Below, one piece after another: positions 1 through 48,933 of a DNA stretch of 64,000 nt; the stretch's first letter is position 1; every line of letters begins with the position of its first letter. The position numbers were made by a program, and so were the translations under genes. The stretch is from Diacronema lutheri (lineage: Eukaryota > Haptophyta > Pavlovophyceae > Pavlovales > Pavlovaceae), in contig JAGTXO010000039.1 of NCBI GenBank assembly GCA_019448385.1, positions 1 to 64,000 of the forward strand, written 5' to 3'. Under the pieces are notes generated by a model. That model saw only the letters and a list, made by a program, of their open reading frames with translations. It was not told where the DNA came from and ran no database searches.

Positions 1-498
1 CTGTTCGGCCGAGGCGCACTCGCCGTCCCCTCGCGCCGGCAACGTGCGTGCGGGCCAGCACGCAGGCAGCGTACGATGCCACGGCAGCGGCGAGCGCGTC
101 CCCGCCGGTGTGCCGCTCGGCGCCCCGTCACGCGCAACGTGCGCGCCGCCCGCTGCATGCGCACGCATACGCGCGCTGGCAGCGTGCGCAAAATTGCCCG
201 GGCAAGATCGTCCCGCGCTCGCGCCGCCGACGCATCATTCCATGTGTCCGTTTCGGCATCTGCCACCATCCACCAGCCCTCGAAAGCCGGCTTGCGCGTG
301 GGCGCCCGTCCGGTGCGAGAAGCGGCTCGCGTCCTCGCGCGGGGCGCCTCCGCGCCAGGCGCCCGGCGCGCGCTCGTCTTGCCGCGCCACCACGCTGATC
401 TGCGCCCAACCCTCGCTCGCCAATTCCCCCGTCGTCCCTGCTGCGCAGCCCGCAACAGCGCGCGCATGGCGCGTGCACGGCGCGGCGCCTTGAGCAAG

Positions 499-1889
499 TT
501 TTACGTCGTCGGTCGGCAGCCTGTGGAAGACGCGTTTGACGGCCCGATGTGGCCGGTGAGAGTGCCCGGCGTGCCGCGTGGTGAGCGCCTGCACGGCTTG
601 CCGGGCTCGGCGCGCGCCCAGCCAGCCTCCCTCCATCCCGCCGCAAACCGTGCGTGCGCACCCCGGACACCCGGCGCTGCGCGGCGCGGCGCAGGCGCGA
701 AAAACGAGGGCAGCGCGTGCTACACGACCGTCCTTATGCAATCGCTCTTCGCCCTGAACATGCTCCGTGCGATGCTTCGCTCCGCTTCGCGCCGTGCCAA
801 CAGCGTCGAGAGGGCGCGTTTTCGGGACTTTGGCACGCTGATCGAGGACACCAGGGCGCCGACACGGCTGTGTCTTGTGTCCGTCATCGACGTCATCTCG
901 GGCCGTGGCGCGCGAAGGACGCCGCAGGATGCCGCTGAGTTCTTCCGGTTGCTGCTCGGCCGAGTGCCCGGGCTCGCTGCGGCCTTTGAAGCCGACACAC
1001 GCGTCGGGCCAGTGCTCGAGCAGATCGCCGTGCCTTCAGAGGCCGGCGAGGGCATCGCCGTACTCGTCAGCGTCGGCGGCGATGCGGCGCGCGCGCTTGC
1101 ACACGCTCTGGGGGGCGCCGCTGGGCCGCCGCGGGATCGCCACACGAACGCGGGCCACTCGGGCGTGCTCACGCCAGCCAGCATTGCTGTCGAGGCGCCG
1201 CGCACGACGCGCGGCAATGGCTCGCAGTGCAAGAACAACCGCGCGCTCGTGTGCGCGCCGCGGCTGCTGCTCGGCGGGCGCGACCACCTCCCCGTCGCCG
1301 GCGTGGTGCACGTGGGCGAGGGGCCGATGAGCGGGCACCTTGTCGCCATCGTGCTCCGCAACGAGGCTTGGTTTCCGTGCGACGACTACAACGTGCGGCG
1401 GCGCGCACGGTCGCTCGGTGCCGCGACCGGCGGTCGAGCGCAGCCGCGACCGCCCCGTCCTCCCGCGCGGCACGCGCGCGTGGCCTGAAAGCTCGCGCGC
1501 GCGCCTGCCGCACGCACGCGCGTTGCCCGCGCAGATCTACAACGTGCCTGAGTCCGACGCGCTGGCGTGGGCAAGTGGTGCGAGCATGCTCGTTCACAGC
1601 CGGCTCGACGTGGAGCCGTTGGACCCGGCGCTGGGCTCAGCGTCACCGCCGTCGGCCGCATCGCCTGCGTGGCCGAGCTCGGAGCCCGACGCGCCGACCT
1701 TGCCGGCAGCCTGGCCGCGGGTGCGGCAGATGGCAGCGGTGCCAACAGATGCGACGATCGGCATCGCGGAGACGGCTGCAGACATCTCTACGGCGGCGAT
1801 CGGCCCAGCTGCGTGCGAGGCCCGCCAAGTTGTCTCCGTGACGCGCGCATTGCCAACAGCGGTGAGTGCGTCCTCGTCTCCGGCGGCCG

Positions 1890-4600: not shown

Positions 4601-4859
4601 CACGTTGCGGCCGCGCAGCGAGCTTTCGCCGCGTCGCAGCCCCTCCGAGCAGCCACGATGCACGCCCCCGGAGGACGTTGGCCGCGCTCGGAGGCCGCGC
4701 TCGGGCGCGCAAAGAGAGGCGGCGCGGGCAAACGAGTAGGCTCGGCGCGCTGGCGGGTCCTGGTTGTGGGAGAGCGGGGCATTCTCCAGGGCATCATGTA
4801 AATTCTCCCAAGTATCATCCGGGCCGCCATCCGGACACTGACGTGCCCACAGTCTGCAG

Positions 4860-7800
4860 ATGGAGGACTCCGTGAAGGACGCTTTGCCCGGCGGGCGGGG
4901 CGGCTCGGACAGTTTCTCGCTGGCCCTCAGCACCATTCTGTCGCCGGGAGATACCCACCCCCACGTGGTCCCATCCACTTGCCTCATCGCCCTGCTGCGT
5001 TACGCGGATTTCGGCACGAGCAGGGTTAGGGTGGGCGACACGGGGTGCTCGCAGCATGCGCTCAAGGTGGCGCTGCGCAACCTGCGCAAAGCATGCGCGG
5101 ATGCGGACCGGTTTGGGCAGGTGCTCGTGGTCGTGCTACCGCTCTGCCTCCGCGCGTCCAGCGGCCTCGTGCACTGGACGGCGGCGTACCTGCTCCTCGC
5201 GCCGCCCGCGCAGCGCGGCGCGCCGCCCGGCGCCGCGCTCGCCCTGCTCGCCGATTCGCGCACCTTGGGCAACGGCGAATCGGCGTACGCCACGGCGGCC
5301 GGCGTGCTCATCAAGAAGCTTGCGCAGCGCATCGGCAGAACAGCGCCGCCCATCGATGCCTTCAAGGCGCCCCCGCAGAGTGGGGCCGCGTGTTGCTTCG
5401 CCGCGGCAACAGTCGCGGCCGAGGTCGTGGCGAGCGCATCGACGCTCTACGGCCGCCGCGCGAGTGTCCTTGTCGACATCAAGAAGGCTTTGGACGCGCG
5501 CCTCGCGCGCCTCACGACGGCCGCGTACGAGGAGACCCGCGCGCGCACGCTCCGCGCCGCCATCGGCGCTCTGCTCGGCGACCGCGCCAGGCGCTTCGGC
5601 CCGTTCACCCGCGAGGCCGCGCGGCTCGCCGAGGCCGCGCGGCTCGCCGAGGCGTGCGATGCCAGTATCGGCGGATCCGCGCCCGACGGGCTGCTGCAGG
5701 CCGTCGAGGCGGCGCTGCGCGCGCCCGACGACCGCATCGCACGCACGGCCGCGCTCGACGCGCTCACGGGCGCTGCAGGCCGCGCGCTGTCGACGGCGGC
5801 CAGGCCGCGCGGCGCGGCGGCGCCAAGGCCGCCGTCGCGAGCGCCACCGCCGCGTGCGCCGCAGCGGCGCGCCGCCTCGGCGTGGGGGCCCCGACCATTC
5901 AGCAGCCTCGGCGGGGGCGAGGGCGACGGGGACGATGGCGACGCCACCACCGCTGACGACGGGGAGGGCGCGGAGGACGGGGACGACGACCCCGCGGGCG
6001 CGGCGGCTGCGGCGGTGGCGACGGGCACGGCGGCGACGAGCGCGGTGGCGGCGGGCGCGGCGCCAACCTCGCCGGCGGCGGCGGACGGCGGTGGCTCGGC
6101 GCCGCTCGAACGCCGCTGCGTCTACACTGCGCCTGATGAGGGCGACGCGGACGCGCGCGTGTACGACGCCAAGGACCCCGAGCAGCTAAAAGCGGGCAGG
6201 GCGCGGCTACGGGCGAACAGCGGGCGCGCGCCCGCCGTGGTCGACACGCTTTTCGCGCACGCGACGGGCACGATCGTCACGCGGCAGCGCACGGAGGGCG
6301 TGACCGGCGCGGGCATGCACCACCTCGCCGCCCCGACGCAGGGCGCGGGGTACGGTACCGTCGTGCGGGCCGAGCTGGGCGAGCCCGGCTTCGCGGGGAC
6401 GACATGGCACATGACGTCGGGCGTGGAGAACCAGCCGCGCGCGGTACGAGCGGCCGCGCGCGCGTACGCGCACGACGGCTGGGGCGGCGTGTACAATGCG
6501 CACGAGGACTTTGCCGCCTTCGAGGGCTTGCCGCGGCTCGCCGCGCCCGAATCGCTCGCGGCCATCGCCGGCGGGTCGGCGGACGCGGTGTTCTGCTGGC
6601 GGTCCGGCCGGTCCGTCATCGGCGAGGTGACGACGGTTCACTTCAATGGCGACCGCGCCGCCGCCATCGACCACGCGCGGGCGCTGCGCGTCAGGCCCGA
6701 TTGGCGCTCGCAGCCCAGGATCTACGAGGCGGCGTGCGGCGCGGAGGGCACGGTGCTGCTCGTGTGGGTCGTGCCCGACCGTCACAAGAACCCGCGGCTG
6801 GACTGGGCGCCGATTCTCGTCGTGATCCACCTGCCCGCCGACCCCGACTGGCTCGCGCGCGCCACGCCGGCGATCGCGAAGGCGCGGCGCGAGGTCGAGG
6901 ACGGACGCGCGCGCGCGGAGGCGCGCGGCGTGCCGCAGCACCTCGCCTACACGCTGAGCCCACGCTTCCGAGGCACCGCGCCGCGCGGAGCCGCGCGCGT
7001 GCCGCCGCGCCTCGGCGCGAGCGACGCGCGCGAGGCGCGCGCGCTCGCGGCGCTCGAGCCGGCGCTCATGTTCGCGCCGGCCTGGCGGCGCGCGGTGCGC
7101 GCGGCGAGCCGCGCCCCCGGCAGTGGCGCCGCGGCCGTCGAGCGCGCGCTCGCGCGCCTGCACAACGCGCTCGAGCCCGATGACGAGAGCGCGCCCGAGT
7201 CGACGCGCGTCGCGCCGCTCGCCGCCGCGCTCGAGCAGTCGGCGGGCTGGCCGGCGGGCACGGCGCGCATGGCGGCAAGCGTGACCAAGGGCCCCGGCGT
7301 CGGAGATGGCGCAGGTGGCGACGAAGTGACCAAAGTGGAGGAAACGGCGAAGACGAGCGGCGACGGCTGCACCGGCACGCCTCCTCTGCGCCCGGCCGCG
7401 CGCGCGGCCGGCGCGGCGGACGACGGAGGGGCGGCGGTCGTGGCGGGCGTCGAGGGCGAGCGCGACGCACTCGCCAAGACGGGTGCCGGCGGCTGCGACG
7501 ACGACGCTCGCGAGCCGCTGTCGGCCGGCAAGCCCGGCGCACTCGCCGCCGCGGCGACCGTCGGGGGTCTCGGCGAGCTCGTCGGCAGCCTATGCGCGTG
7601 GCTGGCGCGCGGCGCGGCTGGCGGCGCCATCGCGGCCATCTCCCCCGGGACGGCCGCGCGCGGAGCAAACGGCACGCCGCAGCGCGCCGAGCCGCCGGCC
7701 GCCGGCGATCCCGTCGCTCCGCACGCGCGCGTCGCCGCTGCGGCGCCCTTGGCGGGCAGCGCGGCGGCGCCGTCGTCGGCCGCGCGCGACGCGCAGCGCG

Positions 7801-10800
7801 GCGTCGCGGGATTCGACGCGGCCGCGCACGCGCACGCGCGCGACGGCAGGCGGGCGGCACGGCGGATGCGCGAGCAGGAGGGGGCGGTGCACAGGGCCTT
7901 CCGCATGTCCCTCTGGCGCGACGCGACGTTTGTCGAGTTCGTTGAGAAGCTGCGCCCCGACGGCGGCGCGCAGCTGCTCGCGCGCGAGCCCACGCGGCGC
8001 GCGGCGGCGGTGCTGTGCGAGCTCGCGCGCGGCCGCGACGGCGCGAGCGGCGCGGCCGGGCTGCTGCACGAGATGAGAGCCGCCGATGCGCGCGCGCGCG
8101 AGGCCGCCAAAGCGGCGGAGGCAGCGCAGCTTGCGCACGGGACGCTGCGCATCGTGGCAACCGTGGCGCTGGGCGGTGCGGTCTTCGCCGGCATGTCAGC
8201 GCTGGTCGTTGCTTGCGCGGCGCGCACGGCGACCGGTGCGCTTTTTGGGGCCCGCCGCCCGCGGGCGGCCGCGCGCGGAGCCGACGACGCGCTCGGCACG
8301 CTGCAGCGCGCCAAGCCGCCGCCCGCCGACAAGGGCAAGCGCAGGCGCGCCAGAGCCAACGACGACCCCGTCGACGCGGCGCGCAAGGCCGTGGGCAAGG
8401 CGGAGGGCAACTGCCGCAAGGCAGCCCGCCGGCTGCACCTCGCTGCACTGGGCGAGGAGGAGGCGCAGCAGCGCGTGCTCGACGCCGAGGCGGCGGAGCA
8501 GCTGGCGCGCTCGCGCGAGCCGGCCGGCGGCTGGGTAGGCAGCGCGCGCGCGCGCGCGCGCGCGCGCCCCGCCGCGCGCGCGCCCGTCGATTGGCGTGCG
8601 CGCAGCGCAGAACGGCGCGCCAGCTCCGTCACCTGCGCGCCGCCGCGCCCGTGCCCCTCGCGCGCAGGGGCGCCCTGCGGACCTGCGGCTGCAACAGGCG
8701 CACTTTGGCATGCGCGAAGATGCCGACGCGGATGTGCGCCGCGCGCACGAGGTGCTGCGCCGGGCGAGAGAGGGTGTGGCGTGCGCCAAGGCCAGCGTGC
8801 GGCAGATGGAGGCGGCGTTGCTCAACGCGACGCGCTGCGCCACCGCGGTGCTCGCGCCGCGTGGCGTGCCGGAGGGTGACGAGCAGGCCGCGGCGAGAGA
8901 GCAGGCGGCGCTGGACCGGGAGGCGCCGCCGGCCGCGCAACGCGCGGCGCCGACGGCGCGCTCGCCCTCGGAGCCGCCGTCCGAGTGGGGCCCGCCAGCG
9001 GTCGGCCGGCGCCCGACGCCGCGTGCACTGTCGCACGCCGCGGGTCGCGGGGACGACAACCCGTTTGCGCCGCTCGCAACCGTCAGCGGCGATTGGTCGC
9101 CCACGCCGAGCTCGCGCTCGCCGTCCTCGCCGCCGCGGCAGCCGCCGTCCGACCGCCGCAGCGCGCAGCGTCGCAGCGCGCGCGCGCGGCCGCCGAGGCC
9201 GACCGTTTCGCCCGAGGACGCGCTCGCAGCCGAGCGCCAGGCGCGCGCGCTGTCGGAGCAGGCGGAGCAGAGGCGCGCCAAAAAGGCCGCCGCCAAGGCC
9301 GCGCGCCGCGCCGCGCGCGCCGCCGACAAGCGGACGGCGCGCGTCGTCCACGCGTGCGTAAGCGCCGCCTTGCGGCGCGTCTGCACGAGCGTCGCCACGG
9401 GCACGCCGCTCGCCGTGCTCCGCGAGCGCGCCGAGGGGCCGCGCGCGCCGAAGCCCGCGCCCGCGCCGCCACGCCGCGCAGCGGACGGCGGCCGCGCGCT
9501 CCGCCACGCGCGCCGTGCGGCCGCCGCGGCGGCGGAGCGCGAGGCGGCGGTGGCGGCCGACGCCGACGAGCGGTTCGAGCGGCAGCCCTCCGCCGCCCGG
9601 TTCGACGGCGGCGATGGCGGCGGAGGCGGCCACGTCGAGGCGAGCGCGCGACCGCGCGCCGGCGAGGCCGGCGAGGCTGGCGCGCACGGCGCGCCTGGCG
9701 CAGCGGGGACCCCGGCGGCGTCGCTCGCGTCGCGCAGCCCGTGTGATGCGCGCCGCACGGCACGCCTCCCGCACGCACGCGCCGCAGCCACCTGCGCACG
9801 CAACGGCGGCTGGGGTGGCAACGTCGGCGGCGACGTGTGCGGCGGTTGTTTCGGCGGCGGCGGCGTCCGTCGCGACGCCTGCGGCGGCGGCGACGCCACC
9901 TGCGGCTGCGGCGATGGCGGCGTCGGTGCTGGCGCTGGCGAGGCCCCTGCACACGGTGCGCCGGCGCGCGCGACGGCGTCGCGCTTGCTGCGCTTGCTCG
10001 GCGCGCCACGCGCCGTGCTCGGTGCGATGGCGCACGCCGCGGCCGTGTTGGCGCGCGGCGTGGCCGCAGCCGTCGCTGGCGTGCGCGCCGCCGCGCGCGC
10101 CGTGCGGCGCGCGCGCCGCCGAGCGCCTCGCGCGCGCCGCACGGCTGCGCGGCGGGCTCGCGGCCCGCCGATGCGCGATGTCGACGGCGCCCTGCGGCCC
10201 TCGCCGTCCTGGTTGCGCACACGCCTCGTCTGCGGCCGGCGCCTCGCGCCTCTGCGCCGCGCGGGCGCGCGCCCGCCGCCCGCACACGCCGCGCCGAGTT
10301 CCCGCGCGCGCGCTGCGCAACCCGACAGCGACGCGCCGGCGTGCGCGCCGCGGCGCTCGGCGCCTGTCGGTGCGCCGCCGCGCGCGCGTGGCCTGCGCGC
10401 GGCGCGCGCACGGCGCTTCCTCGACGTCGCCGGCCGCGCGGCGCGGAGCGCGCGCCTCGGCGCGCGCATCACGCGCCAGCGCACGCCGGGTTCGCCATCG
10501 GAGCCCTGCACGGCCGAGAGCGGCGACGGCGCGGGCGCCGGCGGCGTCGGCGCGGCGGCGCCTGGCGCGGCGACGATGCGCGCCACCGGCGCGCGCGCAG
10601 CGCGCGCTGCGGCGGCGGCGGTCGGTGGCGCCTCGCGTCTCGCGCGCCGCGCGATGGCAAGCGCCGCCGCCGCTGCCACCTCCATCGCCGGCGCTGCCGC
10701 CTCCACCGTCGCCGCCGCCGCCGTTGCCATCGGCGCGGCCGTCACGTCACCGGCGTTCGCCGCGGCGCGCGGCATGGCGGCCGCATGCGTCGCTGCCTGC

Positions 10801-11877
10801 GCCCGCCCCACCGCCGCGCAGGCGGCCGCGTCGCGCGCGCTCGGCGCGCTCTTCGTGCTCGTCGACGCGGCCGACGCGGCGGGCGACAGCGACGCCGCGC
10901 TCGGCGCGCTCGCGGCCGCGGTCGACGCGACGGAGCTGCGCCCGCCGCCGGCCTTTTGGCGCGCGGGCCGCGCCGCGGCGTACGCACCGCGTCCGCCGCC
11001 CCTCGACTCGGCGCGGCCGCGCTACAACCGGCGCGCGCGCGCACCTAGCCCTCCCGTCGCGGCCGCGCGGCGCAATCTCGCGCGCGCGGTGCGCGAGCTC
11101 ACGCGCGCCGCGCGCGCTGAGCGCGAGCGCGCGCCGGCGCCGCGCGGCGCGCGCGGCGGCGTGCTCCACGCGCTGCGCGCGTCGCTCCCCGTGCACGCGC
11201 GTGCCGCGCTCGGCACGGACGCGGAGCTGCGCGCGGACATCGCCGCGTTCGCGCGCGCGCGCCGCGAGCTGCACAGCCTCACCGACGCCGAGGTGGCGGC
11301 GCTCGCGCGCCCGGACGGGCCGCCGCTGCCCGTGCGGCTCGCGTGCACGGCGGTCGCGCGCGCGCGCGGCGTGACCGTGCTGCTCGACATCGTGCCGCGC
11401 GGCGGCGGCGCGCCCGAGCGGCTCGTGTGCCGCGCCCGTCGCCGCGGCGCCGCCACGCGCACGCCACGGCCGACAGCCGCCGTTATCGCGCGCGCGCCTT
11501 GCATAGCGGCGCGCGTTGGCCACACTGAGCCGGCGCGCGCGTGCGCGGGCGGATCGATCGGGGTCGCGCGCCTCCGTTCAGCGCGCCGCCGCTCTTGGCG
11601 TGGGGCGCGGCTCGACGTGCACACCCGCGAGCGGCTGGCCACACCGGTGCCAGGCCACGTCGTGGCCTGCGCCGCCGCCTCGGCCATCGGCGCGTGCGTC
11701 GCTCGCGCGCGGCTTGGGCTTGCACGGCTGGCGCGCGCGTGGCCCTGCGCCTCCGCTCCACTGGCCGCTGCTGCTGTCGCCTTCGCGCCTGCCGCCGACG
11801 GTTTTTCTGCGCCCCGCTGGGCGCTCCTGCATCCGCCTTCGCGCCTGCCGCCGACGGTGTTTTCCCCGCCGCACTAG
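4860..11877 (+). CDS. Large protein with N-terminal Ulp1-like (C48) protease fold; 5' part of the Fanzor locus
   Basis: Starts at ATG 4860. Residues about 30-200 look like a Ulp1-type cysteine protease in the order His-Asp-Gln-Cys: H105 in LVHWTAAYLLL, D132 in LLADSRT, Q173 and C178/C179 in PPQSGAACCF. Such enzymes cleave SUMO-like tags or polyproteins. Around residues 570-640 (about 6570-6780) a segment with DAVF...VIGEVTT spacing resembles a degenerate PD-(D/E)XK core with the Lys replaced by Thr. A hydrophobic, membrane-like segment lies near residues 1095-1120 (about 8145-8225). A phase-0 intron fits at 8535-8667, starting in a CG dinucleotide run. The second exon is Arg/Ala-rich with no domain I recognise; its frame stays open to 11877 but looks less protein-like after about 11480. 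The frame beginning near 11541 has no ATG before its own protease domain, so the two probably belong to one transcript; how they connect is not resolved. Confidence 0.6.
8542..8567. repeat. CG dinucleotide run
   Basis: Alternating G and C for about 26 bases just inside the proposed intron 8535-8667; a likely slippage-prone site. Confidence 0.9.
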
Positions 11878-13114
11878 CCGCTGCTGCATCCGCCTTCGCG
11901 CCTGCCGCCGATTTTCCCGCCCCACTAGTTGCTCCTGCATTCGCCTCCGCGCCTGCCACCGACGGCGTTTTCCCCGCCCCACTAGCCGCTGCCGCTGCCG
12001 CGTCCGCGCCCGCCGCCGCGGGCGCGTCTTCCGCCCCACCAGCCATCGCCGCCGCGCCCGCCGCCAACGCGCGCACCGCCAACGTGCCCGTTGCCAACGA
12101 GGCTACCGCCACCGAACCAGCCGCCCTTGAGCTTCCCCTCCAACCCGCCAACTCGGCGCTGCTTGCGTGGGCGGGCGACGCGGCTGCGCGCCGGCTGGCC
12201 GCCGCCGCCGCGAGCGCCGGCCTCCCGCAGGCAGAGGTGGAGCGCATCGCCAGCGGCGACATGCTCGCCTCAACCGTCGACGCGTGCTGCGAGGTCGTGC
12301 TGCGCGTGCACGGGCAGGCCGGCGGCGGGCATGTCTGCCACGTGCCGCTCGCCGCGCAACCCGCGGTGTTTCAGGACGACGCCGAGCGCGCCGCGCTGCT
12401 GCACCGCCTGCGCAGCGAGGCGACAACGCAGGCTGTCATCGGCGTGTGGAGCCCGTCGGACGAGCGCGGCGGCGCGGGCGGTGACGACGGCGCGCAGCTC
12501 GCCTCCGGCCATTTCACCGCGTTGCGCCTTGTGCGCGTCGCGCGCGCGGGCGAGCATCGCTACGACGCGGTGCTCGTCGACACGCTCGCGTCGCCCTGCA
12601 GGCAGGCGCTCATGCTCGCCAAGGCGATAACTGCCACGCTGCACGCGGCGGGTCTCGACATTTCGCGCGTGCGCCGCGCGCTGCTGCTCAACGAGGCGGC
12701 GCAGCGTGGCGCGACGTGCGGCCTCGCGATAGTGGGCGCGCTCAACGACGCGCTCGCCGCGGCGGGCTGCTCGTCCGCGCCGCGCACGTTCGGCGTGGCG
12801 GACATGTACGCTGTCGGCGAGCGCCTCCGCGTCGCGCTGACCGGCGCGGCCAGCGATCGTGCGCCGGGCGGCGTCTGCGCGGTCACGAGCGCGGTGCGTG
12901 GCGGGGGCAGCCCCGATCGCGCCGAAACGCCGCCGCAGACGCGCGGCGCCAAGGCCGCCGCTGGCGTCACCGCCGCCGCCACCGCCGCCGCCACGCCGCC
13001 GCCGCCCGCGCTGGGCGCCGCCGCCGCCGCCACCGCCGCCGCCGCCGCTGCTGCCGCCGCCGTGGCCGCGCCGCCACCGCCGCCACCGCCGCCGCCGGCC
13101 GGCGACGCGGGCGA

Positions 13115-13184
<70 letters not shown>

Positions 13185-16100
13185 GCCGCGCGCACGTTCT
13201 TGAAGCTCGCGCCCAGGGCGCGCGCGGCCGCCTCGGCGCGTGAGGCGTTGCGCGCCGCGTGTGCGCGCGCGGACGCGGCGGCGTCGTCACACGCGTCGGC
13301 GCCGCACGCGCCCGCCGGTGCGCGCCGCCGGCGGCGCGCGGGCGCAGGCGAGCTGGCGCTCGCGGCTGCGCGCGCGCTCGCCTCGACGGAGCACGGCGAT
13401 TTGACGGACGACGCGCTCGAGGCCGCCGTCGAGCAGGAGCTGGGCGACGAGCGCGGCCAACTGCTGCTGTGCACGCGGGGCGCAGCGGCGCAAAGGCCCG
13501 CGCTTTGCCGGCTCCTGAAGCACGCGTGCGCGTCGGCGCGCGCGGCGAAGCGCGCGCAATTCACGGTGTTCGTCGTGCGCGCGGCCACGCGCGGCGAGCG
13601 GGGGGGCGCCGCCGCGAGGCGCGTGGACTCGGTGGTCGAGCTGTCGTGCGCGCTGCACGAGAAGGCGGGCGCGCTCGGCGGCCTCCAGCGCGTCTGTGTG
13701 CGTGGCTTCGCCCTCGAGCGCCGCCGGACACTCGACGCTGGCGCCGAGGCCGGCGCGTCCGCCATCGGCCAGGACGAGCAGGTCGAGGCAGAGGCGGGCG
13801 AGGCGTGCGTCGCCGGCGTGACGATGGCCAAGCAGCTGCGTCAGTTTGCCGAGCAAGCTGCCCGCGACGACGTGCTCTTCCACGTCGCCGTGTCCGAGGC
13901 CGACGCCCACGCCCGGCTGGCGCGCGTTGCGGGTGACGATGTCGGCGCGTACAGCGTCGTGCTCGCAGTCGCCGGGCTCGTCTGGCTGGCCAAGGCCGAC
14001 GAGGTTGCGCCGGCGGCCGCCCAGCCCGCCGCCGTGCCGCCCGCCGCCCCGCCTGCTGCCGCCACGTCCGCCGACGCCGAGCGCGACGCCTCGCCTTCCG
14101 ACCGCCTGCGCGCGCTGACGCTCGCCGTGCCAGTCGCGCTCGCGCGCGGCGTGCTGCGCCACCTCCTCGCCGACGCGTCGCCGGGCGCGTCCGCGACCGC
14201 TGGCGGTAGTTGCGCGACGCCCGTCGAGGCGGCCACGTCCGCCGCCGCGCCGCCCGCCACGGGCGTCGTGACGAGTGGCGTTGCGGCGGGCGCTGTGGCG
14301 GCCGCACCGGCTGCTGCGGGCGGTGCGATGGCGGGTGCATCGCCCATCACGCGGCCGGCGAAGCGCGCGCGGCGCACGCTCACCGCCGCTCCAGCCGCCT
14401 CGGCCGTTGCGGCCGCTGGAGGCGCACGCGCGGGCGCACGCGGCGCGGCCGGCGCGCCTCGCGCGCGCGCCGCGCGCGCGCCGGCCGAGTACGTCTGGCT
14501 TGCCATCGCGCGCCGGATGCTGGCGGCGCGACACGCGGCGGCCGCGGGCGGCGACTTTGTCGCGTCGTGCGTCGCCGCGATGCAGGCCGAGTACGGCGAC
14601 GGCTGTGCCGTCGTCGTCGGCGACGCGCCTGATGACGCCTTGGTCGAGGCTGCGGCGGCGGCGCTGCTCGAGGGCAAGCACGCGGCGGTGAGCCTCGGCT
14701 GCGTCGACCGGCCGGCGGTGCTCGTCGTGCAGCGCGCCGTGGACGCGCCCACGTCGCGCGTGCACGGGTGGTGCGCGCACGCGGCGGGCGCCGCCGAGTT
14801 TGACGAGGGCGCCGCGCGCGGCGTGTTCAACGCGATCGTCGAGCGCGCGTGGGCGCTGCGTCCGGACCCGGCCGACGGCAGCCCGCCGCCCACGCGCACG
14901 TGGGAGGTCGAGCAAATCGCTGGCGACGCGCCCGACCAGGCGGGCGTGGCCGCGCTGCGCGTGCTCTACGCGCTCGTCGCGGCGCACGGCCGCTACCGCT
15001 CGGCCGCCGCGCTCTTTGGCGCGCTCGCGCAGCTGCACGCGCCCGACGCCGCCGGCGCGCGCGCGGAGGTCGTCGCGGCGGCGTGCGCGGTGCCGCCCGG
15101 CGCGCGGCCGGGCGCCGCGCCGGCGGCCGCGCGGGACGACGCGAGGGAGCGCGCATGGGAGGGCGCTCAGATCGCCGCGCTCGCCGTCGGCGCGGACGCT
15201 GCGCGCAGGCGTGTCGCGCCCGTGCGCGCGCTCGTCGACGCGCTCGGCACGCCACCGACCTCGGCGATCACGGGCGGGCCGGCGGTCCGGCTCGCGGGCG
15301 CGGGCGACGGCGGCCACGGTGCACGGTGGGTGGGCGGGCAGGCGGCGACGCCCGCCGAGCAGCTGCCGAGGGAGCTGCTGCGCGCCTACCACGAGGCGGT
15401 GCTGTGCGTCACGCCCGGCAGCCTCCAGCTCGGCCCGGCGGCGCTCGACGCGGTCACGCGGCCGCGCGAAAACGACACGCTGGAAGGCCTCCTCGCGCGC
15501 GTCAGCTGGCAGTGCGGCGCGAGGGCGAGCACGTGCGCCATGCTCGCCACGTTTTCCGAGCAGGCGGGCACCGGCTCGCGCGTCGCGCTCAAGGCCCTCC
15601 GCACGAGCTCCGACCTGGCCGGGCTGACGGCGGCTGCGGTCGGGCAGCAGGCGCCGCAGACGCCGCCGCCGCCGCTGCTCGTGATGCTCGGCCGCTGCCC
15701 CAGCCCGCTCGTCGGCGGTGGCCTCTTCCCGCCCGACCGCGCGACGGGCGAGCCGGCGGTGCACGCGGCGACGTCCGAGCTCGCCGTCGAGCTGCTGCGC
15801 GACGCGCGCGCGCTGGCCGGCACGGACGGGCGGCTCGTCGTGCTGTGCCTCGAGGCGTCCAACCCGCTCTGGTTCTGCCCCAAGGTGCGCGAGCTCGAGC
15901 TGCCGCGGACGCGGTCGGACGGCGTGCGCGCGTCCGGCTGCACCTGCCCTGCGACGTGCAGCGATGCGCGCGGCGCGGCGGGTGGCGCTGCCCGCGGCGC
16001 ATCGACGCGGCCGGCGGCGCGCGCGATCAACAAGGCGGTGCTCGACCACTTCGTCGCGCTTTTCGGCCGCGAGGGCTTCGCGACCTTTGAGTTTGCGGGC

Positions 16101-19100
16101 GGCGGCGAGGCGAGCTGGCTGTGCGACAGCGCGGCCGGCACGACGACCGTCGCGGCGTGCGCGTCGCTGCCGCCGCGCATGGGCGATGGGCAGCTGGCCA
16201 TCCGGCGGCACACGCTCGGCACGGGCGCCGACGCGCCGGCGCACGCCGTCGTCTCGCTCCGCGTCGCGCACGTGAGCCACGCCATCCGCCGCGCGGCGGA
16301 CGACGGCGGCGCGCGCGCCGAGCGGATGGCGCGCGCCGCGCGCGCGTTCTGCGATGTGGCGGCCGCGCTGCGCGTCGACGCGATCCTGGCGGAGGTGCCC
16401 GAGGACCGCCCGACGGGCACGCCCTTCCTTGGCGGGCTGCTCAAATGTTGGGACAAACGCAACGGGAGCTGGACGGCGCCAGCCACGCTCGCGCTCGGAG
16501 ACGTGCGCGAGGTGGCCAAGCGGACGGCCGACGCAGCGGCCGGCCGAGCGGACGAGGTCCCTGCGGCTGGCCGTCCGCAGGTCGCGGCGCGCGCGTGCGC
16601 TGGCGCGATTGGCGGCGGCGCGGGCGCGGCGGGCGCCTCGGACGCTGCGCCGCGTGCACTGGCGGGCGCGTCGGGTGCGCGCACGGACGGCGGCCCTGCC
16701 GACGCACCGCGCCAGCTGGAGAGCCGCTACGGCGAGGCGAGCAAGCTCGACCTACCCCAAGATTCCACTACGGGCCGCGTCCTCGACGCTCGCGAGGCCC
16801 AGGACCGCGCGCGCGTGCCTGCTGCGCCCGACGGCACAGCGCTGCGCCGCGTGCTCGACGCCGTCGGCGCGGGCGCGCCCGCGCAGCGCAGCCCGCGCTG
16901 GCACGACGAGCGATGGGAGGAGGTCACGGGCAGCAAGGTTGGCGACGTCGTGAACGACAACGCCGGCGTCGCGCACGAGACGCTCACCGACGAGTACGTG
17001 CACCGGCGGCGGCGCGAGGTGCGGACCAAGGCGACGACCGCGGGCATCCTCGGCGAGGCCGTCGCGCTGCGCAAGCTGGCGGCCGCGTACGGCATCACCG
17101 TCGTGTGCAACCTGCCGATGGTGCGTGCGGACCCGCACGACAAGAGCGCGCCGTTCGCCTTCTCGCCGGACGGGCTCGCCATCCTCCCCGAAAACAACGA
17201 GCAGGTCCTCGTCGAGGTGAAGACGCTCACCAAGGCGGGCGCCACGGCGCACGAGGACGGGCCGCCGCAGCCGCACCGCGATCAGCTGCAGCTCGGCATG
17301 CACGTCCTCGGCGTGAGCAAAGCGCTCTACGTGCAGTACCTCAGGCACGAGGACCGGATCGTCGTGCACGTCGTGACGCGCGGCGCCGGCTGGCTTGCAT
17401 TCGCGCAGCCGAGGGTGCAGGCCTTCTGGGCGCGCGTCGTCGAGCGGCGCGCGCGGCTCGAGCGCGCGCGCGCCGACCACCCGGCTGCGAGCCGGCGGCA
17501 CCGGCGGCAGCAGACGCCGGCCGGGCCGCCGCTCGTGCTCGCGCTGGACGGGCGCATCCCCGCCGCGCGCGCCGCCGCGCTGCACGCCGTCGCGCACGGC
17601 ACCGCGAGCGCGGCGGCGGTGACGGCGGCGGCGGCGACGGGCGACGCGACGGCGTTGCAAGACGCGATCGCGGCGCTGCGCGCGCCCGTCGGCAATGCGG
17701 CGATCGACAGCGCAGCGCGTGCGGAGCGCGCGGCCGTCGAGCGGGCGATCGCGTACCTCGGGCAGCCGACAGGCGACGCCGCCGCCCGCGGCACGGCCGA
17801 GGCGGCCGAGGAGGAGAGGACGGTCGACGCCGACATCTGCGCGTTGCTGCACCAGCTCGGCGCGAGCGTGGCGCACGTGCACGTCGAGGACGCGGATTGC
17901 GTCACGCGTGAGCACTGGGGCGGGGCGGTGCTCGCTGCAGCGGGCGACCCGTCGAGCGCCCCCGCCATTTCGAGCGTCATCGTCGCGCACATCGTGCGCC
18001 TCGCCGGCTTTGGCGTCGAGCTCCCGCAGTCGATTCGCGTCGCCCCCAGCACGGCCGACTGGCACGAGGGCTGGCTCGACGTGCAGTGCGTGCTGCTGCG
18101 CACGCGCCGGCGCGGGCGGCGCGACGACGACTTTGTGGCCGTCGTCAGGCGCGGTGGGCGCTGGTTTGCGTGCGAGCCCGGCCGCGCGCGGCGGCTGCAG
18201 TGGCGGTCGGTCCTGCGCCGCGCGCGCGGCGGCGTCGACGGGACCGGCGAGGAGGCGTTCGCGGTCGTCTACGTGCGGCGCGGCGACGCGGCCGGCGACG
18301 CGGCTGGCGACGCGCAGGCCGAACGGGCGCGCGGCGGGCGCGCGCGCAGGCGCACGCGCGGCGGCACGCGCAAGCGCAAGCGCGGCGCCTCCGCCGGGCT
18401 CGAGGCGGCCGCGCCCGCCGGCGCGCCGGCGGGCGCTGCTCACCGCCCGCCCGCCAGGCGTGCCACGGTCGCCGCGCGCACCACGCGCTCTGTGACCGAC
18501 GCGCGGCACTCGGCGCCTGCCGCCACGGTTGCACCTGTCTTCGACTGGCGCGCCGGCCGCCCGCCCCCTGCCGCCGCCGCCGCCGCCAAGCGCGGCCAGG
18601 CGCTCGAGCCGGGGCAGTTCGCGCGGCCGCGTGGGCGCGCGCCATGGGGCAAGGTCTGGGACAGAGTCTCGGGTGCGTGGGCGGACAAGCCGACTGGTGC
18701 TGCCGTCGCCGCCGCGCCGCCGCCGCTGCCGCCCGCCGCCGCGCCGCCGCCCGCCGCCGCGCCGCCGCCCACCGCCGCGCCGCCGCCCGCCGCCGCGCCG
18801 CCGCCCGCCGTCGCGCCGCCGCCCGCCGCCGCGCCGCCGCCGCCGCCGCCACCGGCGGCGCTCGGCCGCCGGCAGCACGTCGGCGCGGGCGGCAGCGCGG
18901 CGGGCCGGCGGCTCGCGGCCATCGCACGGCGGCAGCGCGGCGTGCGCGCGCCGCCGCCCGCCGCGCGCTTCCTCGCCACGCTGCCGCCACCGCCACGCGA
19001 CGGCCTCGCGCGCACGAGCAAGCAGGCGCGCGCGAGGCGCAACGCGGACGGACGGCCGGCGCACGCGCGCGCGGCCAACGCGCGCGCCTTCTACCGCGGC

Positions 19101-22100
19101 GTGGAGCTCGGCGTGCACGCGACGCGCGCCATCGTCGACGCGCGCCACGCCGACCTGCCGCAGGCCGTCTTCGTGGCGGAGGCGCGGGCGATCGTCGCGC
19201 GCTCCGCCGGCGGCGGCGCGCTGCTCGCGCCGGACGACGTGCGCGACCTGTGCGACGCGCAGACGGACGCCGATCGCGCTGCGATCTGGGCGTCGGTGGG
19301 CGCGCACGAGGCGACGCGCATCTTCGCGCTCGTCACGCGCAACGCGAGCTTGGCGGGCGCGGCGCTGCTCGTGCTGCACACGCCGGCGGGCGCGCCGGCG
19401 CGCGCGCTCGGGCTCCTGGCGACGCGCTCGCGCGCGCCGTCGACGGGCGCGCCGCGCGACGCGCACAGGGCGCTGGTGCAGCGGTTGGACGTGCTGATGG
19501 ACGCGATCGCCGCGGCGCGAGGCGCGTCGCCGCTCGAGCTCGAGCTCGCGCTCGCGCCCGAGCCGCAGAGCGCGTGCAACGCGCGTGCGGCCGCGCTGCT
19601 CTGCCTGCAGGCCGTCGCGGACGCGAGCGGCCGTCCCGCCGCTGAGGACGCGCTGGCCGCGCTCGACGACGCGCGCGGCATCGACCGGCACTGCCACGCC
19701 GTCCGGCAGCAGATCGAGGCGAAGCTCGCGTGGCGGCGCGCCGACGGCGCCGTCGGCGTTGACGGCGCCGACGGCGCGCCCGCGCTCGCGCCTGCCGCCG
19801 CACCGCCGGCGTGCGCGCCGGCGCACGCTGCCGGCGAGGCGGCGGTCGACCAGGCGATCGTCACGCGGGTGCGCGACGCGCTGCGCGCGTGGGCGACGAC
19901 TGGCACCGCGCCCAGCGCGGCGGTGCTCGACGACGCCTGCGCCGCGTACACGGCCCGCGCACGCGCGCGCAAGGACGCGCGCACGGCGCTGGGCCCGACG
20001 CGCGCGGCCGAGCTGCTCGCCGCGGCCGCGCGCGGCGGAGCCGACGGGGCGGATGCCGCGCGCGCGCTGCTCGGCGGCACGCCGCGCCTGCTCGTCGTGC
20101 TCCTCTGCGTGCCCGTCGCCGCGCCGTCCGGCGAGCCGCCGCGCCCGGTCGGGCTGCTCGTCGCCGACCGGCCGACGGACGACTCGCGCCCGGCCGCGCT
20201 CGTGCGCTACGACTTTGCGCCGCTCGACGCGGACGTGGCCGTCGCGGTCGGCGCGCATGCCGTCGCGCTGGCCAGTGCGATCTGGCCGCTGCTCGCGGCC
20301 GAGGGGGAGCCGCGGCCATCGCCCGTCGTGCGCTCGCAGCCGCGCGGCGGCGACGATGGCGCGCGTGCGCTCGCAACGTTCGCGTGCCTCGACGCGCTGA
20401 TGACCGCCAGCGTCGGCGCGCACGGCCTCGCGGGCGGCGCGGGCATGCTGCCCGCGCTGGTCGCGCGAGGCGCCGCGGCCGCCCAGCGCGAGCGGCAGCT
20501 GCGCGCGGCCGCCGAGAGGCTGGGCGGCACGGTCGCTGGGTGGCCGGACACGGGCGCGAGCGCGGCGGGCGCGAGCGTCGACGAGGAGGCGCGCACGTAC
20601 GAGGTCGAGGCGGTCGTCGACGAGCGCCGCAAGGCGGGCAAGAAGGTGACGTTCCAGTTCCGGATCAGGTGGCGGGGCTACGACGAGAGCGCCGACACGT
20701 GGGAGCCTGAGGCCAACGTGAGCAGCGACCTCGTCGCCCAGTTCCGCAAGACGCGCGACGAGCAGAAGCGGCGCGCGGGCGTATCGGGCAGCGGCAGCGG
20801 CGGCGCGGGCGCGGCGTCGGCATTGGCGTCGGCGCCGCTTCGCGCGCACGGCGAGTCGGGCGCCGCGGGCAAGCGCGCCGCGGCGGGTGCCGCCGCGAGC
20901 GCGCGCGACGCCGCGGGCGCGCGCGCGCCGAGCGTTCCCCGCGCGCGCGGCGTCGAGCGCGCGCGCGTGGACGAGCCCGCTGCGCCGAGCGCGCGCGCCG
21001 CCGGCGGCGCGACGGCGCGCACGCGCGTCAGCGTGCTCCCGGGCTTCGTGGTCAAGCGCTCGACGCTCAACGCGGGGCCGCAGGCGGTGACGGCGCAGCC
21101 CGGTGCGCGGAAGGAGCTGCGGCGCATCGCGGCGGCCGTGCACAGGCTCACGACACAGGCGTACCGCGTCATCAACAAGGTGGTGCGCGACGAGGCTGCG
21201 GTGGCGAGCGCGCAGGCCGTCGGCGCGGCGTCGGGCGGCCCGTCGACCAGCGTGCACACGTCGACCACGATGGACAAGGGAACCGTCCGTGCGATCTTCT
21301 CGGCCATCGGCTGGCACAAGGACGAGAGCACGTACGGTGCAGCGCCCCGAGGCAAGCCCGCCGAGCAAGCCGCCGCGCAGACCAAGGCGGCGACGGCGCG
21401 CGCCGTCGGCGAGATGGCCGAGGGCGTCCAGCCCGTCTGCGCGGTGGGCCTCACGGAGATCCTCGAGGCGGAGGCGACGCAGGTGTCCACCGCGTGCCTG
21501 ATGCATCCATCGCGCGTCGTGAACGGGCTGCTCCGCGACGTCGTCCGCGCGGCAGTCGAGCGCGACGAGGCGCTCGTCGCGCTGCCCGAGATGCAGCGAA
21601 ACGCGCGCGTGCGCGAGCTGTGCGAGCGGCTGCTGCGCGGCGACGTGGAGGGCGCGCGCGTCGGCTGCCCCGCCGCGCTCGACCGCCACCTGCCCGACAT
21701 GGTCCTCCACAAGATCGACTACAAGTGCACGCCCACGAAAAGGTGGAACTACGACCGGCACACGACGCGCTACTTCCTCGTGCAGATCCGCACCCTGCAG
21801 CACGTGGCCGAGGGGCAGGCGCTGCTCTGCCGGCTCGCGCACATCCACACGCAGCTGACCGGACGGCCGCCGCGGTACAATGTGGCGCCGCTGCGCACGC
21901 ACAATGTGCGCGCGAGGCGTGGCTGCCGCTGCCGCCGCCGAGCGCCCAAGCGCGCGCGCCGCCGCCGTGCGCGCCGCCCCGCGGCCAGGTTGGTCACGCG
22001 CCCGCGCGCTCGCGCGCCGCGCGCTGCGCGCAGGTGCCGCGCAACGTGCGCCTCGCCGCGAGCGCCATCTGGGTGACGCTTTCGGATGACGAGCGCAAGG

Positions 22101-23758
22101 AGCTGCGCACGCGGCTCAAGGCGCTGGACCTGCGCGACCACGATGGCGAGCCGATCAAGTGGACAGGCACAAACGGCAACACCCCGCCGATGTCGGACGT
22201 GCGCGTCAGGTACGCGGTCTTTGCGACGCGCTTCGACATCTCCAACCGCGTCTTCGACTACGCCGGGCGCGAGCGGCCGCCGGCCGATCTGCCGTGGCAC
22301 GCGCGGCGCTCGTGGGTTGGCCTCGCGCCGCTGCCGCGCGTGCCGCTCCCGGGCCGGCAGCCCGTCAAGTCGGTGGTGACAGATGGCGTCGCCGTGCACG
22401 CCGTCGGGACCGTCCTCGTGCCGAAGGCGCAGGCGCCGGCCGGCGGCTCGGGCGTCCTGCACCGCTGGCGCCGGCCGGACGGGCGCATCGCCGTCGCGCT
22501 CGGCTCCGAGCTGCGGCGGGCGATCGACGTCGAGGCGGCGGTCGTCGTCGCGGCCGACCCAAACATGGGCAACATCACCACCTACTCTGCGCACGTCGGG
22601 CGGGCGGCCGTCTGGCGGCAGTTCACGCAGCGCGCGCGCGCGCGCGCCGCGGGCTTTGCGCGCGAGACGGCCAAGACCAACGCGGCGCGGCGGCGCGTGC
22701 GCAAGGACGGGCGCGGCGAGGAGTTCAGCGTGGAGGCGGACGAGGCGCGGCTTGGCGAGGCGCACAGCGCCAAGGTGCTCGGCGAGGGCGAGTTCCACGC
22801 CTTCCACCGCGAGAGCGCGCGGGTGCGCGAGCGCGCCGCCGAGCACGTGTACGACGCGCCGGCGCGCCGGAAGGAGCGCTGGCGGCGCGACAGCGGCGGG
22901 CGGTCCAACGCGGCGCGGGTCGCCGAGGCGCTCATCGCGGCGCACTGTGTCGACGGCGTGACGCGCGACCGGCTGCTCGTGTGCGTGGGCAAGTGGCTGC
23001 GCGACCACAAGGGCGCGCAGCCCAAGGGCGCGCCGCCCGCCTTCCAGGTGGGGCTGCTGCGCGAGCTGCGGCGGCGCGGCGTCGCGGCCGTCTTCGTGCC
23101 CGAGCCGTACACGTCGATGCACTGCTCGATGCCGCGGCTCGCCAAGGGCGGCAGGCTGCAGCGCTGCGGCGCGGAGCTCGCGCAGAACCCGCGCCTGCCC
23201 GTGGCAAAGGGCGGCACGCGCACGGTGCACGCGCTCGTCATCTGCCCGGCGTGCAACGGCGGCAAGAAGCCCGTGCACCGCGACTACAACGCCGCGCGCA
23301 ACATCTTCTACGACGTGCACGACATGGCGGCGCACGCGGCCGGGCGCGACACCACGTCGACGCCTGAGCGCTTTGCCCTCGTGCTCGCCTGGTGGGCGCG
23401 CGGCGAGGTGTGGGAGCGTGAGGAGCGCATGGTGCACGGCGAGGGCGACGACTGCGACGACGAGTGCGACGGCGACGACGAGGGCGACGACGAGGGCGAC
23501 GACGACGACGACGACGATGGCAGCGGCGACGGCGGCGGCGGCGAGGGCGACGGCGACGGCGACGGCGACGGAGGCGGCGGCGGCGACGACGACGATGACG
23601 GCGGGGGAGGCGGCGGCGGCGACGGCGGTGGCGACGACGGCGGCGGGCGCGGCGGCGGTGGCGGCGGCGGCTCTCGCGCCCGCACCCCCGCCCGCGGAGC
23701 TGCCAGCGCCAGTGCCGGCGGCGGCAGCGCGCGCGGGCCGAAGCGCGGCCGGCGTTGA
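11541..23758 (+). CDS. Giant Ulp1-YqaJ-chromodomain-Fanzor fusion protein
   Basis: One frame stays open from about 11541 to 21905; a phase-0 GT-AG intron (21906-22033) then joins it to an exon ending at TGA 23756-23758. Together about 4,000 residues. Modules in order: Ala/Pro-rich repeats (to about 12100); a Ulp1-like fold with His324, Asp347, Gln388, Cys393 (counted from 11541); a poly-Ala linker; one or more diverged protease-like segments (about 14480-15060, 19270-19700, 20080-20420); a YqaJ-type nuclease (about 16880-17460); a Pro/Ala repeat; a chromodomain (20583-20770); and a Fanzor nuclease (about 21030-23400) with an acidic Asp/Gly tail ending in a basic GPKRGRR. No ATG precedes the first protease fold (first in-frame ATG near 12259), so the true N-terminus lies upstream, most simply in the 4860-11480 coding region. 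The fusion is seen directly as an open frame; its function is inference. It could be a self-processing polyprotein. Confidence 0.72.
11765..12010. repeat. Tandem repeats with core cgcctgccgccgacggt
   Basis: Four to five imperfect copies, roughly 55-65 bases apart, encode variants of FAPAADGVFPAPLAAAAAS. The copies vary in length, so the open frame changes between the two long reading frames here. This is the junction between the two halves of the locus. Confidence 0.75.
12130..12830 (+). other. Ulp1-like (C48) protease domain
   Basis: His in ASGHFTALRLV (codon 12510), Asp in VLVDTLA (codon 12579), Gln (codon 12702) and Cys (codon 12717) in AAQRGATCGLAIV. This is the His-Asp-Gln-Cys order of Ulp1/adenain-type proteases. 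It looks catalytically complete, unlike later copies in the same protein. Confidence 0.65.
13100..13192. repeat. GCC trinucleotide run (poly-Ala)
   Basis: About 30 GCC units, interrupted once or twice, encode a poly-Ala linker after the first protease module of the giant protein. Confidence 0.93.
16880..17460 (+). other. YqaJ-type PD-(D/E)XK exonuclease domain
   Basis: Motifs follow the phage/lambda-exonuclease-like YqaJ order: SPRWHDERWEEVTGSKVG, then GEAVALRKLAAAYG, then FSPDGLAIL (Asp codon 17169), LVEVKTLTK (Glu codon 17214, Lys codon 17220) and HRDQLQLGMHVLG with the Q-x-Q motif. All expected metal-binding and catalytic residues are visible. Such domains resect DNA ends and are common in viruses and large transposons. 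Confidence 0.8.
18708..18850. repeat. 18-base tandem repeat encoding PPPAAA
   Basis: About seven copies of gccgccgcgccgccgccc with small changes (one encodes Thr, one Val), forming a flexible Pro/Ala linker. Confidence 0.92.
20583..20770 (+). other. Chromodomain
   Basis: Residues read TYEVEAVVDER, then FQFRIRWRGYDESADTWEPE, then NVSSDLVAQFRK. This matches the chromodomain consensus: beta strands, aromatic cage positions Tyr/Trp/Trp, and a C-terminal helix. Chromodomains bind methylated histone tails; in transposable elements they bias where the element acts. It directly precedes the Fanzor part of the same open frame. Confidence 0.85.
21030..23560 (+). other. Fanzor (eukaryotic TnpB-like RNA-guided nuclease) domain
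   Basis: The C-terminal module has the RuvC-fold signatures of the TnpB/Fanzor family: RuvC-I VVVAADPNMGNITTY (Asp codon 22556), RuvC-II VFVPEPYTSMHC (Glu codon 23102), a zinc ribbon (HC..., RCG..., CPAC) between about 23120 and 23260, and RuvC-III VHRDYNAARNI (Asp codon 23282). The helical N-terminal half (about 21100-21900) is separated from the RuvC half by the intron 21906-22033. Characterised members are RNA-guided DNA endonucleases whose guide RNA is encoded beside the gene. All three catalytic acids are present, so it may be active. Fusion to other domains is unusual. Family assignment firm; whether it is the Fanzor1 or Fanzor2 type cannot be told without a tree, but the domain-rich context and intron favour Fanzor1. 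Confidence 0.88.
23456..23690. repeat. GAC/GGC-rich low-complexity tract
   Basis: Irregular GAC and GGC repeats encode an Asp/Gly-rich acidic tail at the end of the Fanzor protein. Confidence 0.92.
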
Positions 23759-24209
23759 CGCACGGCCGAGCCGCGCAGCGGTCGACGCTTTGCGGGCTCT
23801 GCCCAGGTCGCGCGCGGCTGGCGACGCGTGCCGCGCGCGGCACGACCGTGCACGCCGCCACCCGTGGCCGAGCGCGCCGCACCAGCCGGCCCGCTCCAAC
23901 CGCCGTGCGGATCACGGACGCTCGCTACGGCTCGTCGGCGCGCGTCACCTGCGCCGGCGGCCACGGCGCCGTCTGCTCCGGCCTCGTCGCGAGCAGCCCG
24001 ACCGCTGCTCGCCGCCCGCACGCCGCCGCAGCAACGCTGCGCGTCGTGCTCCCCCGCTCGCCAAACGCGAAGAGCTCCCTCACAAGGACGTCCTTCCGAA
24101 CGGCCCGCGCTGCACTCGGGGCGCGATCGTGCCCCTGATCGGATTTGGCTTGACCATCTATACTTGTTGATAGGAAATATGTTTTGAATTTTCGGGTTTT
24201 TTAAAAAAA
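23759..24209. other. Non-coding 3' flank of the Fanzor gene; possible guide-RNA region
   Basis: No supported gene. The first 370 bases are GC-rich. The last 75 bases (about 24135-24209) are strikingly AT-rich, with TTTTTTAAAAAAA near 24199-24209, and fit overlapping 3' ends of two convergent transcripts. In TnpB and Fanzor systems the guide RNA is usually encoded at or just past the 3' end of the nuclease gene, so this is where such an RNA would be sought; no structure was computed. Confidence 0.4.
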
Positions 24210-40346: not shown

Positions 40347-40437
40347 CGCGCCGCCAAGCCGGCCCTCGCCCCTCAACCGCCAACTGCCCGACTGCGGACC
40401 CCGAGGAGGAGAGGCGCAGGAGGGCGGGGGCACGGCG
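40347..40437. promoter_or_regulatory. Compact divergent promoter region
   Basis: Only 91 bases separate the start codons of the ankyrin gene and the RING gene, so both must share promoter DNA. No element recognised. Confidence 0.45.
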
Positions 40438-48808: not shown

Positions 48809-48933
48809 AGGCGCCGCGCGCCGATGGCACGCGCGAGGCGCCCACTCGCGCGCGTCTGACCGTGCCCCTCGCCACGGTCGCCACGCGGGCCCAGCACGCT
48901 CCGAGGCGCAGAGGCGTGCAAGGTGTCAGCACG
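48809..48933. promoter_or_regulatory. Divergent promoter region between helicase and MAP kinase kinase
   Basis: 125 bases between start codons; no defined element recognised. Confidence 0.4.

Follow-up and report, generated by a model that had tools for sequence, protein, structure and literature searches.

In eukaryotic transposons, the biological role of Fanzors, compact nucleases guided by RNA, is unsettled. Published accounts describe their guidance by RNA (PMC10432273) and the requirement for an adjacent motif, which was CATA, TTAA or ATN in the cases tested (PMC10432273, PMC11423790), and they place Fanzor1 proteins in several transposon types and Fanzors also in large viruses (PMC3627910). 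Here we analyze a Fanzor of Diacronema lutheri, a haptophyte alga cultured for aquaculture, that is encoded in a stretch of 64,000 nucleotides (hereafter the window) corresponding to positions 1-64000 of contig JAGTXO010000039.1 (C73 in our labelling). Positions 1-24163 of the window (+) are the right part, and most, of a copy of a high-copy DNA transposon of ~31 kb, and frames and profiles suggest that its Fanzor is likely made as one chain with a chromodomain and a YqaJ nuclease. The D. lutheri NIVA-4/92 genome is described as having 73.25% guanine plus cytosine (GC) and 22.9% of repeats, with long terminal repeat and long interspersed nuclear elements as the chief annotated kinds (PMC8379373), and the terms Fanzor, Helitron and transposable element have zero occurrences in that paper. 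The genome that we searched comprises 43,492,796 bases in 103 contigs.

At its start the window contig is already inside the element, ~6.9 kb from the left end of this copy. A copy on contig C9 (C9:2136663-2167711) measures 31,049 bp by coordinates, 3 kb of that span being unread, and another locus (L045:6543-8000) is identical to window positions 1-1458. The right terminus lies at 24141-24163 (+), and 194 exact instances of this 23-mer were counted in the genome, compared with 0 for a reversed control. In all of the 30 loci cut at the right end the similarity breaks off at one common base, window position 24163, and the right flanks differ directly after it in 29 of them, the 30th being a contig end. 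The termini are sharp, with CTATATAC at the left and CTATAC at the right; the left end, CTATATACGGCGCGG, was located by comparing two copies and then searching the genome. A 501-bp probe (20400-20900) gave 262 first-look candidates, and the 40 that were scored were all 100% identical to it. As the loci were picked through a 100% match to 20400-20900 or 23864-24163, the high identity and low variation at these probe regions were not used as evidence; over the other parts of the element the loci read were 98.5-100% identical to the window. A target duplication of at least 2 bp was absent in all five copies read at both ends, no 8-mer of the first 200 bp recurred in inverted order in the last 300 bp, and the first base of the right flank was G in 18 of 29 loci.

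The 194 copies, were all of them full length, would equal ~14% of the assembly. Shorter copies also exist, like one of 12.65 kb on C28 (G000:C28:58928-71582), in which the Pif1, YqaJ and chromodomain matches all fall in frames of 2,282 codons, probably one and the same frame of an internal deletion derivative. Furthermore, the L034 copy joins window position 22054 to inverted 17819, a short relic at L073:2956-3105 (88% identical to window 16692-16843) could stem from an older relative of the element, and L045:1662-2548, near the left end, holds internal direct and inverted repeats with GTGTAGG-type units. Several contigs start or stop at or within one base of the right end (C1:1, C12:1, C8:187138, C14:457505 and C32:562155), which are likely assembly breaks at repeat boundaries. 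The idea of 5'-truncated copies was dropped in view of the numbers of first-look candidates along the element (274 for the left end, 189 for window 1-300, 262 at 20400-20900 and 280 for the right end).

The original prediction had placed the Fanzor at the end of a continuous frame beginning at 11541 and joined to it by one phase-0 intron. The continuity of the frame was borne out: positions 11529-22073 (+) are free of stops for 3,515 codons, with the first ATG at 12261, whereas in 200 second-order Markov sequences, each 24,163 bp long, no run in any of the six frames exceeded 1,898 codons. A second + frame of 1,015 codons (20711-23755) overlaps its end. High third-position GC marks frame 0 as coding between ~12.0 and ~21.9 kb, and frame 2 between 22.03 and ~23.4 kb. 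A candidate GT..AG phase-0 intron of 128 bp at 21906-22033 (+) links the two frames without a stop, in agreement with the prediction, but four further GT..AG pairs are likewise compatible with the joining. Over the exon parts of 18900-22400 that they cover, 25 of 30 loci are free of indels, with L027 and L034 spanning a portion of this region. A 2-bp insertion common to five of the 30 sits inside the candidate intron and would do no harm there; L036, which is among these five, carries an exon indel as well.

The proposed start of the frame, by contrast, has to be given up, as it reflects a frameshift in this copy. Among the genomic matches to the chromodomain profile (best 150 of 260 candidates scored), 146 resemble element copies, the first four, which resemble other genes, having been left out; the frame around the match has at least 4,450 codons in 83 of these 146 scored copies, 4,450-4,550 in 60, fewer than 4,000 in 44 and more than 5,300 (5,339-6,136) in seven. 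The YqaJ matches (best 150 of 203 candidates scored) fall in frames of the same lengths and on the same contigs. The frame of the C9 copy extends from about window position 8539 to 22073. In the window copy a one-base length difference near 11.8 kb, ahead of ATG 12261, cuts it short, so that the frame at 8539-11874 (+) corresponds to the N-terminal part of the giant open reading frame (ORF) in the C9 copy. Apart from that one-base difference, the length differences within the long ORF of the C9, C5 and C30 copies sum to multiples of three. Further upstream, an ORF of 1,345 codons at 4842-8876 (+; first ATG at 4860) has no Pfam family at E ≤ 1 and probably continues into the giant ORF in one frame in up to seven of the 146 copies. 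A protein search with residues 1500-3460 of ORF 11529-22073 gave 0 hits among 2,306 candidates scored. The apparent protein divergence of L019, L023 and L037 was not used, since it resembles frame errors near contig ends.

When the long ORF was scanned alone against Pfam, only Chromo and YqaJ were returned. The chromodomain (20598-20750, +) was recovered as predicted, with 53.8 bits for PF00385 (E-value, E, 4e-12; cut-off 25.1), and is nearest to the CDY/HP1 type, its closest solved structures being CDYL (2.4e-10) and HP1 (1.2e-9), with CDY1 also near. The giant frame also appears to carry a YqaJ/lambda-exonuclease-like nuclease (16899-17309, +), although with weaker profile support than the Fanzor and the chromodomain. 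The YqaJ profile (PF09588) gives 15.4, 21.1 or 22.4 bits in the window copy depending on what is scanned, around a cut-off of 22, and 28.2 bits in another copy. The NCBIfam lambda-exonuclease family TIGR03033 matches at E 2.2e-5, far below its cut-off, and a search of solved structures returned no relevant match.

Other domains were found outside the long ORF. A Pif1 helicase is encoded upstream in the element (E 1.8e-24, 2B domain included); no solved structure bears on the identity of the helicase N-part. A ubiquitin C-terminal hydrolase (USP)-like domain lies on the left side of the window, the best of two stretches being 694-960 (+), with a Pfam UCH match at E 4.2e-8 (33.5 bits, cut-off 23.9) in a scan of L045:6534-7997 continuing into the window. 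This domain had no NCBIfam match and no solved structure at E ≤ 0.01.

The C-terminal half of the Fanzor, with the RuvC and zinc-ribbon parts and an acidic/Gly-rich tail, occupies 22034-23755 (+). The TnpB/Fanzor zinc-ribbon profile PF07282 did return it (E 4e-6, 27.3 bits, cut-off 26.3), and the three RuvC acids that had been proposed are confirmed: D616, E798 and D858 of ORF 20711-23755 (window positions 22556, 23102 and 23282) align with the D/E/D of a second Fanzor family of the genome (BLASTP E 8e-9, 26% identity over 332 residues). Of the zinc ribbon, four cysteines are present (residues 805, 819, 845 and 848), of which the first two, spaced by 14 residues, do not form a CxxC. A profile of the two families (A2) finds Cas12f1 (1.1e-4) and SpuFz1, the Fanzor of Spizellomyces (1.7e-4), along with TnpB structures as weaker matches; the match of the Fanzor half alone to guided_TnpB (NF040570) is weak (0.085). 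The Fanzor signature of 2013, as given in PMC3627910, D-X(125,275)-[TS][TS]XX-C4-X(5,50)-RD, is present, and the stricter expression of 2023, DPGx(120-160)ExxxxxxCxxCx(12,18)CxxCx(4,8)D in the form given by PMC10711439, does not match, with E-x6-C being kept. From its position in the giant frame, 21033-21905 (+) is presumed to be the N-terminal lobe (WED/REC). A protein search with the Fanzor half found one near-identical protein of 570 amino acids in ENA among 8,000 scored, and a single-sequence model of 22034-23404 was uninformative, with a predicted local distance difference test score (pLDDT) of 36. As a member of this family the D. lutheri Fanzor would be RNA-guided, and the non-coding 3' end of the element (23756-24163, +) is the presumed source of the guide RNA scaffold; the RNA fold of 23964-24063 has a z score of -2.23 versus shuffles.

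The second family provides the best Fanzor matches in the genome and belongs to another element, with copies (L001-L008) that are 95-99% identical; its places include G000:C1:154701 and C9:378667. Matches with the same score have frames that reach 1,779 codons, and the Fanzor forms the end of the frame in those loci that were read; a Fanzor terminating a long frame is thus seen twice in this genome. No chromodomain or YqaJ match was found at the places of this family among the best 150 of 260 and best 150 of 203 matches listed, respectively. This Fanzor also fails the strict expression of PMC10711439 as given there, having DPG, E-x6-C and both CxxC at longer spacings. Its right end in L002 has two strong hairpins (z -9.78 for L002:2315-2415), and the final hairpin, which reaches the flank at ...CTATATATG, is found in seven of eight loci. 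A protein search with the Fanzor of this family gave 0 hits among 8,000 scored.

The best explanation of these data as a whole, which we put forward tentatively, would be an element encoding a long chain in which the Fanzor cuts empty sites, YqaJ and Pif1 help to copy the element back, and the chromodomain serves as a tether. The Fanzor would use an RNA made from the right end of the element, with the right-flanking DNA as the guide, and would cut the same site when it is empty, either in the sister or in the allele. The tethered YqaJ nuclease would resect the cut ends, and Pif1 would aid recombination or replication, by which the element would be copied back in or retained. The HP1/CDY-type chromodomain may tether the complex to a methylated histone and so bias it toward methylated chromatin, and the USP could work on host ubiquitin marks. 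Several observations speak against this explanation. Homing would account for retention and not for ~194 places, so that reaching new sites would require an unrecognised or trans-acting recombinase. With respect to the PMC10711439 expression as given there, the window Fanzor has DPN in place of DPG, a D-to-E distance of 182 residues and no first CxxC; lacking DPG and one CxxC, it may therefore be partly degenerate. The Fanzor half alone gave no significant match among solved structures (Cas12f1 at 0.19), the presumed N-lobe (21.03-21.9 kb) has no detectable similarity to the second family, and the last 101 nucleotides of the element fold no better than shuffles (z -0.32). In addition, an intron or a frameshift divides the Pif1 match in the C9 copy between two frames, whose lengths are found again in many copies, and the ratio of nonsynonymous to synonymous change (dN/dS) between copies, at 0.21 to 3.57 from few changes, is uninformative. 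A bolder form, in which a giant element without a transposase has spread to ~194 places by RNA-guided cutting and built-in repair through a protein of more than 4,000 residues, seems unlikely to us; it would combine chromatin reading, a flank-derived guide, resection by a tethered lambda-type exonuclease and copying by Pif1-assisted recombination.

For the entry into new sites, the main rival is a trans-acting Crypton-like or other recombinase, and it is quite possible that the element is moved by such an unrecognised or trans-acting enzyme (a Crypton-like tyrosine recombinase or a Helitron-like one), with the Fanzor and YqaJ as accessories and the ends CTATATAC and CTATAC as recombination cores. 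The five copies with similar short ends and no target duplication would fit this, as would the Pif1-type helicase and the occurrence of Fanzor1, described in PMC3627910, both in Helitrons and in a single element that carries a partial Crypton transposase. The genome contains 16 Phage_integrase matches and one Helitron_like_N match, two of the former class of candidates (C17:194914 and C69:95472) lying within a few kb of the estimated left ends of copies. However, none of the 94 element ORFs scanned, of 128 with at least 150 amino acids, matches a recombinase or transposase family (Pfam, E ≤ 0.1), and no recombinase match lies inside any placed copy. The tyrosine-recombinase matches also include G000 C1:83672 and C4:48529, and the Helitron_like_N match is at C63:35738; all of them are possible trans-acting mobilisers.

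Another alternative, somewhat unlikely in our opinion, is that several proteins are made, the Fanzor coming from its own transcript, with or without the chromodomain, and the upstream long frame being a separate gene. ATGs are present at 20400, 20445 and 21270, and the Fanzor could have its own start at ATG 20445 (about 1,060 amino acids, chromodomain included) or at ATG 21270 (about 790 amino acids, without it). In favor of this, the known SpuFz1 is described as the single ORF of a ~2.1-kb locus (PMC10432273), and homology could not fix where the Fanzor N-lobe starts. Against it, the chromodomain frame is unbroken over at least 4,450 codons in the 83 copies mentioned above, the YqaJ matches lie in frames of the same lengths, and a start at ATG 21270 would lose sequence that resembles, by eye, the start of the N-lobe. 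A single chain is further favored by the lack of any ATG from 20445, ahead of the chromodomain, to 21270, by the loci free of exon indels, by the 2-bp insertion that falls in the candidate intron and by the length differences that sum to multiples of three. As the Fanzor follows the chromodomain and YqaJ in one frame plus a probable intron, we consider it a fair inference of the original prediction that targeting and end processing are built into one chain.

The same prediction had included a Ulp1-like protease in this chain, and this part found no support from profiles. The claimed domain (12261-12890, +) was an H/D/Q/C pattern seen by eye; the region matches 0 Pfam families at E ≤ 10 and no relevant solved structure, and its single-sequence model (pLDDT 43) is uninformative. 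This bears on the possibility, which we regard as very unlikely, that the long frame is a polyprotein processed by proteases of the element (the Ulp1-like pattern and the USP). The USP domain and the H/D/Q/C patterns, at 12.3-12.9 kb and also near 5.2 kb, would favor it, but USPs cut ubiquitin, not polyproteins. Furthermore, the long frame has no protease profile, the nine Peptidase_C48 (PF02902) matches of the genome all lie outside the placed element copies, and hhalign of the candidate segments gave probabilities of at most 0.7%, within the range of shuffled controls.

An origin as an endogenised large DNA virus or a virus-derived element is highly improbable. The gene content might suggest it, as Pif1, USP and YqaJ are also present in giant viruses. 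Fanzors are likewise known from large viruses according to PMC3627910, but no capsid, polymerase or packaging family was found in the 94 ORFs scanned, and three scans of viral contigs gave 0 relatives of the Fanzor or YqaJ parts. Finally, the notion that the long frames merely arise from a 73-82% GC composition and that the domains are noise, which the long overlapping frames on both strands could suggest, is refuted by the Markov maximum of 1,898 codons together with independent profile matches in a consistent order.

Outside the element, the window holds an ankyrin-repeat protein (37509-40448, -), a gene with ankyrin and cyclic-nucleotide-binding domains and an ion-transport match just below cut-off (58874-63664, +), a large SF1 helicase-like gene with AAA_11/AAA_12 domains (43736-48925, -) and a Glycosyltransferase 61 match at the cut-off (35478-37367, +).

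In the open-licence literature, supplements aside, we have found no report of a Fanzor-chromodomain or Fanzor-YqaJ fusion, nor of this element. An element whose Fanzor appears coupled to a resection nuclease and a chromatin reader, with near-identical copies at ~194 places, would make the role of Fanzors directly testable. If true, it would also show that nature has combined an RNA-guided nuclease with modules for repair steering and chromatin targeting.

In comparison with known systems, the element differs from DDE cut-and-paste transposons, in which terminal inverted repeats and a target duplication are expected and neither was found here. It resembles the giant transposons (Polintons, Teratorn and large Helitrons as described in PMC6431247, and Starships) in its size and in carrying genes beyond transposition, but no integrase, polymerase, transposase or recombinase family was detected in the ORFs scanned. 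With Cryptons it shares similar short sequences at both ends and the absence of target duplication, although there is no Phage_integrase match in the scanned ORFs or inside a placed copy. In the case of Helitron2/Helitron, the Pif1-type helicase and the lack of target duplication are common features, and an association with Fanzor1 is described in Chlamydomonas (PMC3627910). However, a protein joining HUH Rep and Pif1 was not found, Helitron_like_N is absent from the 94 ORFs, the single match of the genome lying on C63, and instead of 5'-TC/CTRR-3' ends and a 3' hairpin the element has 5'-CTATATAC and CTATAC-3' and no strong hairpin. The likeness to lambda-exonuclease/YqaJ nucleases is a profile match that covers nearly all of the YqaJ length, but here the domain is embedded with a chromodomain in a frame of 3,515 to ~4,500 codons. 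The Fanzor1 transposons, and Spu-1 of Spizellomyces in particular, are similar in that a Fanzor lies within a repeated DNA element (PMC3627910, PMC10432273) and, for Spu-1, in having no recognised transposase (PMC10432273). As described there, Spu-1 is ~2.1 kb long, with a single ORF and inverted repeats, whereas the D. lutheri element is ~31 kb long without an evident terminal inverted repeat, carries Pif1 and USP domains, and places its Fanzor behind YqaJ and a chromodomain in a giant frame.

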